A stretch of 64,000 nt of DNA from Rhizobium sp. ACO-34A. GTDB lineage: Bacteria; Pseudomonadota; Alphaproteobacteria; Rhizobiales; Rhizobiaceae. Both the position numbers and the translations under genes were made by a program. Under the pieces are notes generated by a model that had not been told where the DNA came from, made no database searches, and saw nothing but the letters and a program-made list of their open reading frames with translations. Shown piece by piece: positions 6,106 to 47,794 of the stretch (position 1 is its first letter; each line of letters starts with the position of its first letter). The stretch spans positions 3,475,001-3,539,000 of the forward strand of contig CP021371.1 of the NCBI GenBank assembly GCA_002600635.1. Direction: 5' to 3'.

Positions 6106-10823
<4,718 letters not shown>

Positions 10824-38242: not shown

Positions 38243-39670
38243 ATGACCTTGAAGATCGTACCCGTCATCATGGCTGGCGGAAAGGGAACGCGTCTCTGGC
38301 CGCTGTCACGCGCGGCGGCTGCGAAGCAGTTCATCCGTTTCGTCGGCGACAAGACCCTGTTCCAGGGTACGCTGCTTCGAGTAGAGGACGATCATCTCTA
38401 CGAACCCGCGCTGGTTATCACCAATGAGGAATTCCGCTTCCTCGTCGCAGAACAGGCACGCGAACTGGATGCGAAGCTCTCCGGCATCGTTCTGGAACCC
38501 GAGGCCCGCAACACCGCCGCCGCGGTCGCGGCAGCCGCCGTGATCGTGTCCGATCTCTATGGCGAGGACGCCATCATCCAGATCCTGCCGTCCGACCACG
38601 ATATCGTCGTCGACGATACCTATCGCAACTGTGTGAAGGCAGCCGCCAAGGCTGCCCATGCCGGCAAGATCGTCACCTTCGGCATCACCCCGACCGAACC
38701 TGCAACCGGGTACGGCTATATTGAACTCGGCAAGGAACTCGGAGACGGCGCCTTTGCCGTCAAGCGCTTCGTCGAGAAGCCGAAAACCGAGGCCGCGGAG
38801 AAGATGCTCGAGGCCGGCAACTTCTACTGGAACTCCGGCATGTTCGTCTTTTCCGCGAGCCAGATCGTCGCGGAACTCGAAAAATTCGCACCCGAAGTTC
38901 TGGCTGCTGCCCAGGCATCGGCAGAAAAGGCCACCAAGGATCTGGACTTCACCCGTCTCGACAAGGACACCTTCGTCAACAGCCCAAGCATCTCGATCGA
39001 CTATGCGGTGATGGAAAAGACCCCGAATGCCGCCGTCATCCCCTCCCCGATCACATGGTCGGATCTCGGGAGCTGGGATGCCGTCTGGAAGATCGGTCAG
39101 CCGGATGCGGACGGCAACGTCGTGCACGGCAATGCGACGGTGATCGGCACCCGCAACTCGCTCGTCATGTCACGCAACAGTCACCTTGCAGTGCAGGGCA
39201 TGGACGGCGTCGCCGTCATCGCCAGCGAAGATGCCGTCTATGTCGGACGTCTGGACGAAAGCCAGAAGGTCGGCGATCTCGTGAAGCTTCTGGCGTCGCG
39301 CAAGGAAACCGCCAACCTGACGGAAAACCACCCGACATCGTTCCGTCCCTGGGGCGGCTACACCTCCGTGCTCAATGGCGAACGCTTCCAGGTGAAGCGC
39401 CTCTTCGTCCATCCCGGCAAGAAGCTGTCATTGCAGAAGCATCACCACCGCGCGGAGCACTGGGTATGCGTCCGCGGCACAGCGGAAGTCACTATCGACG
39501 ACAAGGTGACGATCTTGCACGAGAATCAGTCGATCTACATTCCGCAAGGCTCGGTGCACCGGCTTGCCAACCCCGGAAAGATCCAGCTCGAGATGATCGA
39601 GATCCAGACGGGCTCCTATCTCGGCGAAGACGACATCATTCGTCTGGTCGACGAATTCGGCCGGAGCTGA
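38243..39670 (+). CDS. Mannose-1-phosphate guanylyltransferase / mannose-6-phosphate isomerase, bifunctional
   Basis: A 475-residue type-II enzyme that makes mannose-6-phosphate from fructose-6-phosphate and GDP-mannose from mannose-1-phosphate, for surface polysaccharides, LPS and Nod-factor fucose. The N-terminal nucleotidyltransferase has MAGGKGTRLWPLSR at ~9-22 and FVEKP near ~177; the linker then leads to the C-terminal cupin isomerase (RPWGGYTSVLNG, then HPGKKLSLQKHHHRAEHWV) with its zinc histidines. Known names in different species are manC, xanB, algA, noeJ; I cannot choose between them. The phosphomannomutase needed between the two reactions is not in the window; pgm-type enzymes could serve. 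A terminator follows. Confidence 0.93.
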   Translation: MTLKIVPVIMAGGKGTRLWPLSRAAAAKQFIRFVGDKTLFQGTLLRVEDDHLYEPALVITNEEFRFLVAEQARELDAKLSGIVLEPEARNTAAAVAAAAVIVSDLYGEDAIIQILPSDHDIVVDDTYRNCVKAAAKAAHAGKIVTFGITPTEPATGYGYIELGKELGDGAFAVKRFVEKPKTEAAEKMLEAGNFYWNSGMFVFSASQIVAELEKFAPEVLAAAQASAEKATKDLDFTRLDKDTFVNSPSISIDYAVMEKTPNAAVIPSPITWSDLGSWDAVWKIGQPDADGNVVHGNATVIGTRNSLVMSRNSHLAVQGMDGVAVIASEDAVYVGRLDESQKVGDLVKLLASRKETANLTENHPTSFRPWGGYTSVLNGERFQVKRLFVHPGKKLSLQKHHHRAEHWVCVRGTAEVTIDDKVTILHENQSIYIPQGSVHRLANPGKIQLEMIEIQTGSYLGEDDIIRLVDEFGRS

Positions 39671-39710
39671 CGTCTACAACCGAAATGACATGACATCTGC
39701 GAAAAACACG

Positions 39711-39739
39711 AGGCCCCGGACGCTTATGCGCCGGGGCCT
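39711..39739 (+). terminator. Terminator after the GDP-mannose gene
   Basis: A 9-bp stem (AGGCCCCGG / CCGGGGCCT) with an 11-base loop, followed by GCTTGCTTTAT. The T tract is broken, so efficiency is uncertain. Confidence 0.65.
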
Positions 39740-39822
39740 GCTTGCTTTATGCCGCTGCATTGCACAAGATTGATTTTAACCCGGAAAACGGGATCGATAA
39801 GGGAACAGGGCAAGCAGCACGA

Positions 39823-42800
39823 ATGTCGATCAAGGCCAGTATCTATCACCTCACCCATTATCAATATGACAATCCGGTGAGGCTGGGGCCGCAGATCATC
39901 CGCCTGAAACCGGCCGCACATTCGCGCACCAAGGTGCTCAGTCACTCGCTGAAGGTGACTCCGGCCAATCATTTCGTGAACCTGCAGCAGGATCCCTACG
40001 GCAACTATCTCGCCCGCTTCGTCTTTCCGGACCCGGTGACCGAGTTCAAGATCGAGGTCGATCTTGTCGCCGACATGACGGTCTACAACCCCTTCGACTT
40101 CTTCACCGAAGAAGAAGCGGTGAAATGGCCCTTCGAATACCCTGTAGACATTCGCGAGGACCTCGCGATCTACATGAAGCCCGAGCCGGATTGCCCGGCA
40201 CTCGACGCCTATATGGAAACCGTCGACAAGACGCCGGATCAGGGCACGGTCGACATGGTGGTCGGCCTGAATGCCCGCCTGCAACAGGAAATCGGCTACG
40301 TCATCCGTATGGAGCCCGGCGTACAGCAACCCGACGAAACGCTGACGCTTGCCAGGGGTTCATGCCGCGACACAAGCTGGCTGCTGGTCCAGATCCTGCG
40401 ACGTCTCGGCCTCGCCGCGCGCTTCGTCTCCGGTTACCTGATCCAGCTCACCCCCGACCTCAAGGCGCTGGATGGTCCTTCCGGCACGGAAGTGGATTTC
40501 ACCGACCTCCATGCCTGGGCGGAAGTCTACATTCCGGGCGCGGGCTGGATCGGCCTCGACCCGACATCGGGCCTCCTGACCGGCGAAAGCCATATCCCGC
40601 TCGCGGCAACGCCGCATTACAAGAACGCCGCCCCCATTTCCGGCGGGTATATAGGCCAGGCCAAGACCGAATTCGCCTTCGACATGCAGGTGAAGCGCGT
40701 TTCGGAGCATCCGCGCATTACCAAGCCCTTTTCCGATGAAAGCTGGGATGCGCTGCATGCTCTCGGCCAGAAGGTCGACCGATCGCTCCTTGCCGGCGAC
40801 GTGCGGCTCACCATGGGCGGTGAGCCGACCTTCGTCTCGATCGACGACTTCCAGTCCGACGAGTGGAACACCGCAGCCGTTGGCCCGACCAAGCGGGAGA
40901 AGGCCGACGATCTCATCCGCCGCCTTCAGCAGCGCTTCGCTCCGGGCGGTTTCCTGCATTACGGTCAGGGCAAGTGGTATCCCGGCGAAAGCCTGCCGCG
41001 CTGGACCTTCTCGCTCTACTGGCGCCGCGACGGCCTGCCGATCTGGAAGAACCCGGACCTGATCGCCGTCGAAAGCCGCGATCACAAGGTCACCCACGAG
41101 GACGCCTCGCGCCTTCTGCAGGCAATCGCCGTCGAACTCGACATCGAGCCCGAGAATGTTGCGGCGGCCTACGAGGACCCTGCCGAATGGGTCGTCAAGG
41201 AGGCGAACCTTCCCGAAAACGTCGATCCGTCCAATTCGAAGCTCAAGGACCCGGAAGAACGCAGCCGCATCGCCAAGGTTTTCGCCAATGGCCTGACCAC
41301 CCCGGCCGGCTATGTCCTGCCGGTGCAGGCCTGGCAGACGCGCGCATCGGGTCGCACCTGGGTCAGCGAAAAGTGGCGCACCCGCCGCGGCCGCCTTTAT
41401 CTCATTCCCGGCGACAGCCCGGTCGGTTTCCGCCTGCCGCTGAACTCGCTGCCCTACATTTCGCCATCCTGGTACCCCTACATCAACCCGGTCGATCCGA
41501 CCGTGGAAAAATCGCCCCTGCCCGATTTTGCGACCGACAAGGGCCGCGGCATGCCGGAACACTCCTTCCAGCGGGACATCGCCCAGCAGACACGCGTGCC
41601 ACAGTCCTATGAGGAAATCGGCGGCCATGTGCGCACCGCGATCTCGGTGGAAGTCCGTGACGGCCGCCTCTGCATCTTCATGCCGCCGACCGAGGCGCTG
41701 GAGGAATACCTCGATCTTCTGGCTTCCGCCGAGCGCGCAGCGGCATCGCTGAACCTGCCGGTTCACATCGAGGGTTACACACCGCCCCATGACGAGCGGC
41801 TGAACGTCATCCGCGTCGCGCCGGATCCGGGCGTCATCGAGGTCAACATCCACCCGGCCTATAACTGGCAGGATTGCGTCGACACCACCGCCGCGATCTA
41901 CGAGGAAGCGCGGCAGTCGCGTCTCGGCGCCGACAAGTTCATGATCGACGGACGCCACACCGGCACCGGAGGCGGCAACCACGTCGTCGTCGGCGGTGCG
42001 ACGACCAACGACAGCCCCTTCCTGCGACGCCCGGACCTGCTGAAGAGCCTCGTGCTGCACTGGCAGCGGCATCCGTCGCTGTCCTATCTGTTCTCCGGCA
42101 TGTTCATCGGCCCGACCAGCCAGGCGCCACGCATCGATGAAGCCCGCCACGACAGCCTCTACGAACTGGAAATCGCGCTCGCCCAGATCCCTATGCCGGG
42201 CAATGGCCAGTTGCCACCCCTGCCGTGGCTGGTCGACCGGCTGTTCCGCAACCTGCTGATCGACGTCACCGGCAACACGCACCGCTCGGAAATCTGCATC
42301 GACAAGCTGTTTTCACCGGATGGACCGACGGGGCGCCTCGGCCTCGTCGAGTTCCGCGGCTTTGAAATGCCGCCGAATGCACGCATGTCGCTTGCCCAGC
42401 AGCTTCTCATCCGCGCGCTGATTGCCCGCTTCTGGAAGAACCCCATCACCGGCAATTTCGTCCGCTGGGGCACGGCGCTGCACGATCGTTTCATGCTGCC
42501 CTACTACGTCTGGCAGGATTTCCTCGAAGTACTCGCCGACCTGCGCGATAACGGCTTCGACTTCAAGCCGGAATGGTTCGAAGCCCAGCTCGAATTCCGT
42601 TTCCCCTTCTATGGCGAGGTGGAATACGGCGATTCGCGGCTGGAACTGCGTCAGGCGCTGGAACCATGGCACGTCATGGGTGAGCAGGGCGCGATTGGCG
42701 GCACAGTGCGTTACGTCGATTCGTCGGTGGAACGGCTTCAGGTGAAGCTCGACACGCCCAATCCGGCCCGGTTCGCCGTTGCCTGCAACGGCCGCCGCGT

Positions 42801-43149
42801 ACCCCTGACCCCGACGCGCACCAACGGCGTGGCGGTCGCCGGCGTACGCTACAAGGCCTGGCAGCCGGCCTCGGGGCTGCATCCCGTCCTGCCGGTCAAC
42901 ACACCGCTAACATTTGACATTTACGATACATGGTCCGGCCGTTCGATCGGTGGGTGCGTGTATCATGTGGCCCATCCCGGTGGCCGGAGTTACGACACCT
43001 TCCCCGTGAACGGGAACGAAGCGGAAGCGAGACGACTTGCACGTTTCGAGCCTTGGGGCCATACAGCGGGCAATTATCCCTTGTGGCCGGAAACCATCGC
43101 ACCGGAATTCCCGCATACATTGGACCTTAGAAGACCGCAGGGCATGTGA
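39823..43149 (+). CDS. Transglutaminase-like plus DUF2126 protein (predicted peptide-modification enzyme)
   Basis: A 1108-residue cytoplasmic protein. Residues ~1-90 are a bacterial transglutaminase-like N-terminal domain ([18 protein letters not shown]), and ~150-275 a transglutaminase/papain-fold core with catalytic C181 in [12 protein letters not shown] in [10 protein letters not shown] and D in [10 protein letters not shown]. From ~300 to the end is DUF2126, with [34 protein letters not shown] and [15 protein letters not shown] as conserved blocks; related families are predicted COOH-NH2 ligases of glutamine-synthetase type. The start at ATG 39823 gives the family N-terminus. The next gene overlaps by 4 bases. 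Together the operon is predicted to build or hydrolyse amide or isopeptide bonds; no product is known to me. Confidence 0.88.
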
Positions 43150-45566
43150 AAGAGGATATGACGAACCAGACGGTGGCCGAACAGCTGGAAGACGAAATCA
43201 GCGAGGCGCGCAGCGTGAGTTATCGAGCATTGCCGGGCGCAGCCGACGAGATGCTGGATAACAACGGCGCCATTCGTCCCGTGTGGCAGCGATTCGTGAA
43301 TTCCATCGACCGGTTGTCCGAGCACGAGCTGCACGAGCGCTTTGCCCGCGCCGACCGCTATCTGCGCGATGCGGGCGTATTCTACCGTGCCTATGGCGCC
43401 AACGGTTCGAGCGACCGGGCCTGGCCCTTCTCCCATATTCCGGTCCTGATTGCCGAAAAGGAATGGCAGGTGCTGGCCGAGGGTCTGGTGCAGCGCGCCA
43501 ACCTGCTGGAAGCGGTCGTCTCTGACATCTACAACGACAACCGGCTGGTTCAGGAAGGCTTTCTGCCGCCGCAGCTGATCGCCGGAAATCCGGAATTCCT
43601 GCGTCCCCTGGTGGGGGTCAAGCCGGCCGGCGGACACTATCTTCATTTCTGTTCGTTCGAGATCGGTCGCGGGCCTGACGGTAACTGGTGGGTGCTGGCC
43701 GACCGCACGCAGGCACCATCAGGCGCGGGCTTCGCGCTGGAAAACCGCGTTGCGACCACCCGCGCCTTCTCCGACATTTATGCCGAGACGCATGTCCATC
43801 GCCTCGCCTCCTTCTTCGGGGCATTCCGCGACGCGCTGCAGTCCCGCAAGCAGCATGCGGACGACCGTATCGCCGTGCTCTCCCCCGGCCCGGCCAATGA
43901 AACCTATTTCGAACACGCCTACATCGCCCGCTATCTCGGCGTCATGCTGCTGGAAGGCGAGGATCTGGCGGTCGTCAACGGCCGGGTCATGGTGCGCACC
44001 GTCGCCGGCCTGAAGCCGATCAGCGTCCTCTGGCGTCGCCTGGATGCCGCCTATTCCGATCCGCTGGAACTCAACCAGAACTCCCATATCGGCACGCCCG
44101 GAATGGTTCAGGCACTGCGCAACGGCGCGGTGACCTTCGTCAACGCCCTTGGTTCCGGCATTCTGGAAACCCGGGCGATGCTCGCCTTCATGCCGACCAT
44201 CTGTCGTCATCTGCTCGGTGAGGATCTGGCCCTTCCCTCCATCGCAACCTGGTGGTGCGGCCAGAAATCCGAGCGCGAGCATGTGGCCCGCAACCTCGAT
44301 CGCATGGTGATCGGCCCCGCCTATTCCCGGCTTCCCTTCTTCGACGACAGCGGCCGCTCTCAGCTCGGCGACTCGCTGTCGAAAGCACAGCGCCTGTCCA
44401 TGCTGGAACGCATGGAAGCAGAAGGCGGCAAGCTGGTCGGCCAGGAGGTCGTCACTCTCTCTACGACGCCTGCCTTCATTGGCGGCAAGCTGACGCCGCG
44501 TCCGATGAGCCTACGTGTCTATGCCGCTCGTACCCGCGACGGCTGGCAGATCATGCCCGGCGGCTTCGCCCGCATCGGCAGCGGCGATGACGTTTCGGCC
44601 ATCGCCATGCAATCCGGTGGCAGCGCCGCCGACGTCTGGATCGTCTCCGAAAAGCCGGTCGACCGCACTTCGCTCCTTCCGGCGGAAGAAAGCTTCACCC
44701 GCAACATGCCGGGCAGCCTGCCGAGCCGGGCGGCCGACAACCTCTACTGGCTCGGCCGCTACATCGAGCGGGCCGAAGGCGCATTGCGCATTCTTCGCGC
44801 ATGGCACGGACGCTTCGCCGAATCGGCGGACCCCGAGCAGCCGCTTCTGGCCTATGTGGCGCGCTATCTGTCCGACCTCGACGTCGACATGAAGCACGGC
44901 GTGCCGGAAAGCATGATGCGCAACATCGACAGCGCGGTCTATTCGGCCAGCAATATCCGCGACCGCTTCTCGCCGGACGGCTGGCTGGCATTGACCGACC
45001 TAGCCAAGACCGCACGCCGCTTCCACGATACCGTCAAGCATGGCGACGACGCCGCCCATGCGATGACCATTCTTTTGCGAAAGCTCGCGGGCTTCGCCGG
45101 TCTGGTGCATGAAAACATGTACCGCTTCACCGGCTGGCGCTTTCTGACCGTCGGCCGCTTCCTCGAACGCGGGCTGCACATGACACGGCTGCTCGGCCAC
45201 ATGAGCGCCGACGCGGCACCCGATGGTTCGCTCGACATGCTGCTGGAGATTGGCGACAACGTCATGACCCATCGCCGCCGCTACAATGTCAACACGGCCA
45301 AGCTGACCGTGACCGACCTGCTGGCGCTAGACCCGCTGAACCCGCGTTCCATTCTGTTCCAGCTCAACGAAATCCGTACCGAACTGGAGCAACTGCCGAA
45401 CGCCTTCGTCAACGGCCAGATGTCGCCGCTCTACCGCGAGGCGATGCGCCTTCATTCCGGCCTGGCGGTGATGACGCCGGAGACGATGACGCCGGAAATC
45501 TACGCCACCCTCGAACGCGAGCTCGAGAAACTGTCCGACATCCTTGCCAACACCTATCTCGGATAG
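43146..45566 (+). CDS. Circularly permuted ATP-grasp type 2 fused to alpha-E domain
   Basis: An 806-residue protein. Residues ~30-500 are a circularly permuted ATP-grasp ligase ([67 protein letters not shown]). From ~525 to the end is the helical alpha-E domain, beginning [19 protein letters not shown]. These two domains are separate neighbouring genes in many bacteria; here they are one chain. ATP-grasp enzymes join a carboxylate to an amine through an acyl phosphate. GTG at 43146 overlaps the preceding stop; ATG at 43158 is an alternative start. It sits between two transglutaminase genes with almost no spacing, so all three should act together. Confidence 0.9.
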
Positions 45567-45570
45567 TCCG

Positions 45571-46449
45571 ATGCTCTACGATCTCACGCTTCATATCGGC
45601 TATACCTACGACGTTCCGGTTTCGGGATCGCACCACGTCCTGCGCGTGCTGCCGCTATCCCTGTCCGACCGCCAGAGGCTCGTCGCCGGTGCCGTCAGGA
45701 TCGATCCGCAGCCGGACGAAACCAGCAACTTCGTCGATTTCTTCCAGCATCCCGCAACCTCCATCATGCTGCGGGCCCAGCACGAGAAGCTCGATATCCG
45801 CATGCAGGCCCGCGTCATGGTGCAGCCGCAGGCGATCACCGCGGACTTCTCCCCGATCCTGGAAAAACTGCCGGAAGAACTTGCCGATTACTGGTCCGTC
45901 GAACCGGATTCGCCGCATCATTTCCTCGGTGTAAGCCCCCGTCTCAGCGAAGTCCCGGAAATTGCGGCCTATGCGGCAAAGGCCATCAAACCTGGCCTGA
46001 CGTTACGTCAGATCGCCGAGACGCTCTGCGCCCGGATTCACTCGGACTTCAAATACGACCCCGATGCCACGACGGTAGATTCCACGCCTGCGGAAGCGTT
46101 TGCGCTGAAACGCGGCGTCTGCCAGGATTTTTCCCATGTGATGATCATCGCGCTCAGAAGCCTCGGCATTCCCGCCGGCTATGTCAGCGGCTTCCTGCGC
46201 ACGATCCCGCCACCGGGCAAGGAACGCCTCGAGGGCGCTGACGCCATGCATGCCTGGGTACGTGTCTGGTGCGGTGAAACCATGGGCTGGATCGAACTCG
46301 ACCCCACCAACAACATCGTCGTCAGCAGCGATCATGTCGTGGTCGCCTATGGCCGGGACTATTCCGATGTCGCTCCGGTCATCGGCGTGCTGAAGAGCTA
46401 CGGCAGCCACCAGACCGTGCAGGCGGTAGACGTGATCCCGGTGAAATGA
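45571..46449 (+). CDS. Transglutaminase-like cysteine protease-fold protein
   Basis: A 292-residue cytoplasmic protein with a bacterial transglutaminase N-terminal region (YDLTLHIGYTYDVPVSGSHH) and a core at ~155-265: catalytic C184 in RGVCQDFSHVMI, H in MHAWVRVW and D in WIELDPTNN. It starts at ATG 45571, four bases after the stop of the ATP-grasp/alpha-E gene. In related operons this gene is often followed by an Anbu (proteasome-like) peptidase; here it is not. The predicted activity is to make or break amide bonds of the molecule processed by the other two proteins. Confidence 0.9.
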   Translation: MLYDLTLHIGYTYDVPVSGSHHVLRVLPLSLSDRQRLVAGAVRIDPQPDETSNFVDFFQHPATSIMLRAQHEKLDIRMQARVMVQPQAITADFSPILEKLPEELADYWSVEPDSPHHFLGVSPRLSEVPEIAAYAAKAIKPGLTLRQIAETLCARIHSDFKYDPDATTVDSTPAEAFALKRGVCQDFSHVMIIALRSLGIPAGYVSGFLRTIPPPGKERLEGADAMHAWVRVWCGETMGWIELDPTNNIVVSSDHVVVAYGRDYSDVAPVIGVLKSYGSHQTVQAVDVIPVK

Positions 46450-46561: not shown

Positions 46562-47794
46562 ATGATGACTGGTTTCGAAAAGAGAAACATTGCTATACGC
46601 CGGTTCGCGACAGACCGGAGCGGTAATTTCGGCATGATGACGGCAATATTGCTGCCGGTAACGCTCGCCATCGCAGGGCTGGCGATGGATATGACGCAGG
46701 TCATACAGGTCCGGTCCGCCCTTCAGGATGCCGCCGACTCTGCGGCCCTTTCCGCGGCTGCGGCGCTCGCCGGCAATGAACAGTTGACCGATGCGGAAGC
46801 CATCGCACAGGCAAAGCTTTTCATGGCCTCCCAGTTCACGAATATCAACGGTACCAGCGACGGCAACGTTGACCCGACTGCCCAACAGCAATCGCAGGCG
46901 GAAGTGGCGGAAGGCGCAGTAGCAAGCGTGCAGCGCACGAACGGCGCCGGCAACGGTAAAACCTTCGATGTCACGATCAGCGGCCATTACGACGTGTCGA
47001 TGAACGCCCTCACGCGACTGCTGGGTTACGATACGATGCGCGTCAGCGTCTCCAGCACCTCCCAAAGCACGACGGAAAGCAAGAATGCGCTGTCGATGTT
47101 CTTGGTCCTCGACCGTTCCGGCTCAATGGCAGACGACACCAGCACCGTGAACACGGCTCAGCCGGAGAAAACGGTTACCTACGACTGCGGTACCTGGAGA
47201 GAGAAGAAAACCTGCAGCTATACTCAGACCAACTACTATACAAAGATCGAGGCATTGAAGCTCGCAGTCGCGGACCTCACAACCCAGCTCGACACCGCTG
47301 ACCCTGACAAGATGTATGTACGCACGGCCGCAGTCTCCTACAACGCATCGATGCAGACTGCGACCGCCTTCGAATGGGGGACTTCCAAGGCCCTTACCTA
47401 TGTGAAGGCCCTGACCGCGACCGGCGGCACGGACTCCTCCGGCGCCATGAAGGAAGCCTATACCAAGGTAACTGCGGCAAGCGAACTGACTGCCCACAAA
47501 ACGAAGAACGGCCAGGAGTCTCCGGGCAAGTTTATCATCTTCATGACCGATGGCGACAACAACTATACAAGCGCGGACACCTCCACCAGGGCCACATGCA
47601 CCAGCGCCAAAGCGGCAGCCGTGGAAATCTATACAGTGGCCTTCATGGCGCCCCAGCGCGGCAGGGAACTGCTGCAGGACTGCGCCACGGACACTTCGCA
47701 TTACTATGATGCCAACAACGCTGCCGAACTCGTTGCAGCCTTCAAGGAGATCGGCGAAAAGGCGGCAGCAGCAGCCACTCGCCTGACCAATTGA
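46562..47794 (+). CDS. TadG-like pilus-assembly / von Willebrand factor A domain protein
   Basis: A 410-residue protein with a TadE/TadG-like N-terminus (residues ~15-60: RSGNFGMMTAILLPVTLAIA, one membrane anchor, then VRSALQDAADSAALSAAAAL) and a von Willebrand A domain from ~178 to 400. The metal-ion-dependent adhesion site is intact: DRSGSM, the Thr of GGTDSS and the Asp of MTDGDNN. It is exported and probably faces the periplasm or surface. Members of the family belong to tight-adherence pilus systems, yet no other tad or cpa gene is nearby, so this is a solitary paralogue. GGGGCGAG precedes the ATG. A strong terminator follows. Confidence 0.87.
   Translation: MMTGFEKRNIAIRRFATDRSGNFGMMTAILLPVTLAIAGLAMDMTQVIQVRSALQDAADSAALSAAAALAGNEQLTDAEAIAQAKLFMASQFTNINGTSDGNVDPTAQQQSQAEVAEGAVASVQRTNGAGNGKTFDVTISGHYDVSMNALTRLLGYDTMRVSVSSTSQSTTESKNALSMFLVLDRSGSMADDTSTVNTAQPEKTVTYDCGTWREKKTCSYTQTNYYTKIEALKLAVADLTTQLDTADPDKMYVRTAAVSYNASMQTATAFEWGTSKALTYVKALTATGGTDSSGAMKEAYTKVTAASELTAHKTKNGQESPGKFIIFMTDGDNNYTSADTSTRATCTSAKAAAVEIYTVAFMAPQRGRELLQDCATDTSHYYDANNAAELVAAFKEIGEKAAAAATRLTN

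Follow-up and report, generated by a model that had tools for sequence, protein, structure and literature searches.

Iyer et al. (2009) reportedly predicted that some bacteria tag with peptides, by a system whose ligases are glutamine synthetase (GS)-like or circularly permuted ATP-grasp proteins and which also includes an N-terminal nucleophile (NTN) peptidase and an alpha-helical domain; the conserved neighbourhoods of that system are likewise said to hold transglutaminase (TG)-like and Alpha-E proteins next to GS-like DUF2126 and the permuted ATP-grasp. Here we analyse three co-directional genes of these families, encoding the proteins P1, P2 and P3 in that order, on the + strand of a 64,000-nucleotide stretch of the Rhizobium sp. 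ACO-34A genome (contig CP021371.1, positions 3,475,001 to 3,539,000; G000:C1:3475001-3539000 in our numbering), which we call the window; the genome comprises 6.28 Mb in five contigs. The other close relative is the Anbu operon of Pseudomonas, Yersinia and Hyphomicrobium, with genes for ATP-grasp, Alpha-E, TG and proteasome-like Anbu proteins (PMC5666114; PMC6376114). The Yersinia ATP-grasp protein releases phosphate from ATP (PMC6376114), and genes of the Anbu operon are described as not essential without stress (PMC5666114).

We refer to the window operon as module 2 and to the separate ATP-grasp/Alpha-E/TG set, usually accompanied by Anbu, as module 1. Compared with the system of Iyer et al., this genome lacks Anbu, and the ATP site is eroded in the ATP-grasp of the window operon. 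The first three genes of the Anbu operon recur in the same order in module 1 of this genome, whereas the window operon has DUF2126 and a fusion and is without Anbu, which is missing genome-wide. No substrate of the system was reported, and the word DUF2126 appeared in no paper, in the literature searched, most subscription journals lying outside that search. An earlier note on the window had presented the operon as an undescribed system; this was too strong, since a related prediction and the Anbu operon had already been described. The operon is real, widely conserved and of a predicted but uncharacterised kind.

Conserved residues of the window operon

Pfam matches in P1 (39823..43149) are Bact_transglu_N, Transglut_core and DUF2126 (1339.9 bits), those in P2 (43146..45566) are CP_ATPgrasp_2 (465.8 bits; also CP_ATPgrasp_1) and Alpha-E (197.3 bits), and those in P3 (45571..46449), by family a TG-like cysteine amidase or transferase, are Bact_transglu_N and Transglut_core. 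The P1 stop and P2 start overlap by four bases (43146..43149, +), and a gap of four bases separates P2 from P3 (45567..45570, +). P2 starts with GTG at 43146, with ATG at 43158 as an alternative. The gene positions, overlap and gap given in the earlier note, its domain calls and its placing of ATP-grasp and Alpha-E in a single polypeptide all agree with these data.

The model of P2 is a glutathione-synthetase-type, circularly permuted ATP-grasp fold at residues ~30-501, followed by Alpha-E at ~525-806. We aligned the ATP-grasp parts of 36 unfused (module 1) and 93 fused (module 2) proteins, numbered by the 504-residue open reading frame (ORF) of module 1 in this genome (L003 8193). Conservation reaches 95% or more in 130 columns of the module-1 ATP-grasps, and for 52 of these columns the identity in module 2 is 90% or higher. 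E190 is kept in 2/93 fused proteins and N192 in 0/93, K351 in one and K398 in eight, G404, G405, Y406 and G407 of the Gly-rich loop in 11, 16, 1 and 17, and N489, Q492 and K497 in 1, 7 and 13, with every one of these residues found in 36/36 unfused proteins. The motif LEDNxRxPSG presumably matches the metal motif ExN known from glutathione synthetase and D-Ala ligase, and K398 with the glycines the lysine that serves ATP and the Gly-rich loop. The window P2 has A185 and R187 at the E190 and N192 positions; Glu and Asn, the two Lys and the Gly-rich loop, all of them invariant among the unfused proteins, are missing from it. The solved structure 3n6x, a putative glutathionylspermidine synthase of Methylobacillus flagellatus, has the module-1 motifs VVKEVQGSGGYG and LEDNLRTPSG, whereas P2 is without both.

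The replaced site is itself conserved among the fused proteins (R187 in 89/93, G195 in 92/93, E341 in 92/93), the fused and unfused ATP-grasps split cleanly in the tree with support 1.0, and at 27 positions each group shows 97% identity or more. The eight proteins that keep K398 come from Granulicella, Enterobacter and six further genomes of other classes, so the erosion of the ATP site appears more advanced in the order to which this genome belongs. The TG triads are identical in all aligned relatives (P1 C181/H230/D246, 102/102; P3 C184/H227/D244, 90/90), as are DUF2126 residues E334, E389, E673, H720, R821, E823, E843 and R845 (102/102; H712, 99/102). The ER motif of Alpha-E, kept in P2, is found in 94, 93 and 94 of 94 sequences. 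P2, with its fold retained and its ATP/Mg site eroded, is best taken as a conserved pseudo-ligase and is very probably inactive as an ATP-grasp ligase. The earlier note had all three proteins keeping their catalytic residues, which is correct for the Cys/His/Asp of P1 and P3 but fails for the P2 ATP-grasp; similarly, its view of a predicted amidoligase system with no proven substrate stands at the level of the families but not for P2 as an active ligase.

The DUF2126 part of P1 models as a GS fold and would be the likelier ligase of the window operon, rather than P2. It differs from glutamine synthetase and GmaS (gamma-glutamylmethylamide synthetase) in its ~10% identity, in the 826 positions of its family and in being TG-fused. 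P1 had no sequence match in the PDB, and among solved structures TgpA (6g49) and 3isr, a putative cysteine protease, come closest to the TG-like domains. E. coli GspSA (glutathionylspermidine synthetase/amidase) also pairs a ligase with an amidase, in its case papain-like and with a catalytic cysteine, within a single bifunctional chain, and P1 may resemble it in the way it works; the likeness is one of analogy, as the GspSA ligase has an ATP-grasp fold whereas the ligase part of P1 models as a GS fold, which sets P1 apart from the GspSA type.

Distribution of module 2

A scan of named genomes, for which 16 P1 proteins had been aligned, revealed at least 585 confirmed DUF2126 loci, of which the best 80 were kept, all from named Alphaproteobacteria or unplaced metagenome-assembled genomes. 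The nearest named P1 relative among the matches listed was that of Ciceribacter sichuanensis S101 (98%). A P2 match follows P1 in 72/80 named loci (two cut by a contig end). Among the other eight, L103, L111 and L124 have fewer than 550 bases of contig left after P1, and L081, L087, L098, L112 and L128 are truly without a P2 match behind P1; whole-genome searches detected a long ATP-grasp ORF elsewhere in the genomes of L081 and L087 and only the short type for L098, L103, L112 and L128. All of the at least 120 P2 relatives found by protein search, in which 8000 candidates were scored, combine ATP-grasp with Alpha-E, and a plasmid of the acidobacterium Granulicella tundricola has a three-gene order identical to that of the window operon. 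The fusion, one of the two features that the earlier note had singled out, is a trait of the family, and the set as a whole is not confined to the genome under study.

In 20 further DUF2126 stretches of 13-20 kb (one from the order, the remaining 19 from the phylum's other classes), P2 was detected in 17 and a module-1-type ATP-grasp in 12, and modules 1 and 2 lie side by side in Caballeronia sp. M1242 and on an Enterobacter roggenkampii plasmid. On that 90-kb plasmid (NZ_CP116251.1), where both modules are contiguous (L160 2150-11341), arsC lies ~2 kb before them and an IS26-family transposase ~5 kb behind; it is the sole near-identical record among 72,556 plasmids. In two loci (L145 and L148), P1 occurs with both module 1 and Anbu but P2 is missing, a form of the set devoid of the pseudo-ligase. 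An 18-kb stretch encodes a divergent P1-like protein in two pieces (L158 7103-10100; 33-34% identity) and no other part of the module.

Module 1 accompanies module 2

PF14403 and Alpha-E each have two matches in this genome. The second set, module 1 (L003 8193-11496, ~3.213 Mb of the same contig), consists of separate ATP-grasp, Alpha-E and TG genes; its ATP-grasp, within the ORF from 8193, probably starts at 8289 and has an intact motif. The catalytic Cys of the module-1 TG protein is kept in 20/21 proteins and replaced by Ser in one. The earlier note had raised the prospect of a second copy of the window set. A second ATP-grasp/Alpha-E/TG set does exist, but we rejected it as a mere copy of module 2, since active site, fusion and clade all differ. 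Behind module 1, a tRNA-Arg (CCG) is followed by integrase-like and recombinase-like ORFs (L003 13021-16335), which looks like an integrated element.

Across 150 genomes of the order, DUF2126 was detected in 63 and PF14403 in 109. PF14403 was present in 62/63 of the DUF2126 genomes, 60 of them with at least two matches, the remaining three genomes being 56, 78 and 84% complete; each of the 47 genomes with PF14403 but without DUF2126 had one match. Across 299 genomes of the phylum, all 84 genomes with DUF2126 had PF14403, 79 of them with at least two matches, and PF14403 was found in 161 genomes overall (157 over the family cut-off).

Loss of Anbu

Using a profile built from 12 Anbu proteins of loci of relatives (profile A2), we detected no match among the 12 candidates scored in this genome, no Anbu ORF lies behind its module 1, and its sole PF00227 match looks like HslV, with HslU next to it. 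The earlier note had remarked that Anbu is not adjacent to the operon; this is so, and it reflects absence from the whole genome rather than a shifted gene. With the same profile, Anbu was found in 94/150 genomes of the order, all with PF14403, and was missing from 15 of the 109 PF14403 genomes, 11 of which have DUF2126. A weak negative DUF2126-Anbu association derived from PF00227 (second match in 66/150 genomes; 31/63 versus 33/47, p 0.03) was withdrawn, because with the 94 genomes identified by profile A2 the comparison becomes 51/63 versus 43/47 (p 0.17). One genome that has no DUF2126 (G116) carries two Anbu genes (C15:53215 and C1:20512), of which one does not share a contig with its ATP-grasp.

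Anbu was present in 71 of 121 genomes of the family and missing in 27/59 with at least two PF14403 matches and in 2/41 with one. We then placed its presence on a tree of P2 from 40 family genomes, the window and two outgroups, with 41 tips scored (22 without Anbu, 19 with). A single change suffices, compared with a mean of 13.9 and a minimum of 8 in 500 shuffles of the labels, which argues for one loss rather than repeated replacement. Within the sampled family, Anbu was lost a single time, in the clade to which this genome belongs, and both modules were retained there.

Regulation and surroundings

The Anbu operon is described as unchanged in expression across various conditions except nitrogen limitation in P. 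putida (PMC5666114), in which PP2685-2687 were up 6.6 to 11.1-fold (PMC3325844); with nitrate versus ammonium, PP_2685 (Anbu) and PP_2688 (ATP-grasp) rose by 4.44 and 3.99 log2 units (PMC8050072). In an ntrC mutant of B. cenocepacia H111, I35_5080-5083, annotated as DUF404/407 (ATP-grasp), DUF403 (Alpha-E), TG-like and large TG-like, were down 8.2, 9.4, 9.4 and 6.0-fold (PMC5491218). Another B. cenocepacia strain (L231) has module 1, P1, P2 and P3 co-directional and preceded by a sigma54 site with one mismatch and by an NtrC palindrome that is perfect, and from this gene order the large TG-like protein is, by position, of the DUF2126 type. These domains are associated with urea genes in marine metagenomes (PMC3597751), a predicted sigma54 regulon includes the proteasome-type protease COG3484 in the alpha, beta and gamma classes (PMC12316311), and the regulatory region of a COG2308 gene is associated with nodule competitiveness in S. 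meliloti (PMC8407117). A sigma54 match (up to two mismatches) was also seen upstream of the module-1 ATP-grasp in 7 of 21 rhizobial-order loci, that of this genome included. The system is tied to nitrogen status in Burkholderia and Pseudomonas at least, but this evidence does not reach the window operon: no sigma54/NtrC site was found upstream of it (39671..39822), and such control is not supported by the upstream scan.

That gap (39671..39822, +) follows a mannose-1-phosphate guanylyltransferase-type gene (38243-39670). The sigma70 scan found no sigma70-like site in it; a G+C-rich inverted repeat and then a T-rich run can be made out by eye at ~39714-39748, although the terminator scan did not list them. 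A 640-codon open frame antisense to P1 (40360-42282) was taken as a codon-use shadow of P1. A Tad (TadE/G-like) and VWA protein (46562-47794), grouped with 13 rhizobial loci, lies between the operon and glycogen genes.

Possible functions of the two modules

The explanation that we favour, to which we give an even chance, is a two-part amide ligase/amidase system, probably cytosolic, with the window operon as its accessory half. P1 would be bifunctional: its GS-fold DUF2126 part would use ATP to link a carboxylate and an amine, and the TG-like cysteine domain would cut or transfer the same type of bond; P3 would be a second TG-like amidase, and P2, as a pseudo-ligase, would most likely bind the substrate or partner enzymes. 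Module 2 would cooperate with module 1, whose ATP-grasp would be the other active ligase. More tentatively, at somewhat less than even chances, the fused family may derive from one ancient duplication and a single loss of ATP catalysis, and may have persisted across several Pseudomonadota classes, and in one acidobacterium or more, as a pseudo-ligase whose task is to hold for P1 either module-1 enzymes or a substrate, acyl or peptide, with module 2 as a module-1-dependent extension that is free of Anbu in this clade.

Several observations weigh against parts of this explanation. The model of P1 has weak stretches, and plain Foldseek places glutamine synthetase no better than E 0.03; some fused proteins, from Granulicella and from other classes, keep K398 (8/93) or K497 (13/93) and may bind ATP partially; and pull-downs of the Anbu-operon proteins in Yersinia gave no specific interactions (PMC6376114). 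For the tie between the modules, 10/299 genomes of the phylum have at least two PF14403 matches without DUF2126 (67 have one), five DUF2126 genomes have a single PF14403 match, and the Fisher p values for co-occurrence (8e-11 and 4e-29) ignore shared descent. As to nitrogen, a sigma54 match (two mismatches) lies upstream of P1 in 10/81 regions versus 5% in shuffles, and among 19 P1 upstream regions of the other-class stretches an NtrC palindrome was found in none and a sigma54 site (up to one mismatch) in two. Given the first of these counts and the lack of a site upstream of the window operon, nitrogen control of rhizobial module 2 is not demonstrated.

The idea of protein tagging, which PMC5666114 and PMC6376114 quote from Iyer 2009 and from Valas and Bourne 2008, would have the ligases add a peptide tag, the TG domains remove it and Anbu degrade the tagged proteins. 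It accords with the occurrence of Anbu in 94/109 PF14403 genomes of the order and in no genome without PF14403, but this genome and its clade kept both modules without Anbu, and Yersinia Anbu had no peptidase activity on the substrates tested (PMC6376114). We consider it unlikely, though tagging may take place in the absence of Anbu. A system of three fully active enzymes, in which P1 and P2 are independent ATP-dependent ligases and P2 binds ATP through non-canonical residues, would fit the retained fold, the 27 shared positions and the occasional K398 (8/93) and K497 (13/93); it seems quite improbable in view of the near-complete replacement of the Asn, Glu and K351 (0, 2 and 1 of 93) and the lost Gly-rich loop, set against intact motifs in 36/36 unfused proteins.

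P1 and P3 could instead act as true transglutaminases, cross-linking proteins or coupling amines to Gln, with the ligases in an auxiliary role. Their Cys-His-Asp is intact in all aligned sequences, but the same triad serves hydrolases, the nearest solved relatives are 3isr and 6g49, and residues alone cannot decide the matter; we regard true transglutaminases as very unlikely. Least credible is a part in glycogen or trehalose metabolism, suggested by glgP, glgB and further glycogen genes behind the operon; glgP has clustered counterparts in 14 other loci and glgB in 13. Those loci are nearly all rhizobial (one glgB is in Mangrovicella, L112), so inherited gene order is enough to account for them, and no such neighbour recurs elsewhere in the 80 loci. 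The clustering of neighbour ORFs can overlook genes, as antisense shadow ORFs hid P1 itself in 16/81 sets.

The two-part amide ligase/amidase explanation concerns a common gene set, with at least 585 DUF2126 loci. The possible chemistry is narrowed, in that the module-1 ATP-grasp and DUF2126 are predicted to be active and P2 is not. Relatives without Anbu offer a natural setting for studying a ligase/amidase function apart from the proteasome relative, and, if the more tentative reading of a single duplication and loss is true, the Anbu-free pair of modules in this clade would separate amide-bond chemistry from the proteasome-like protease.

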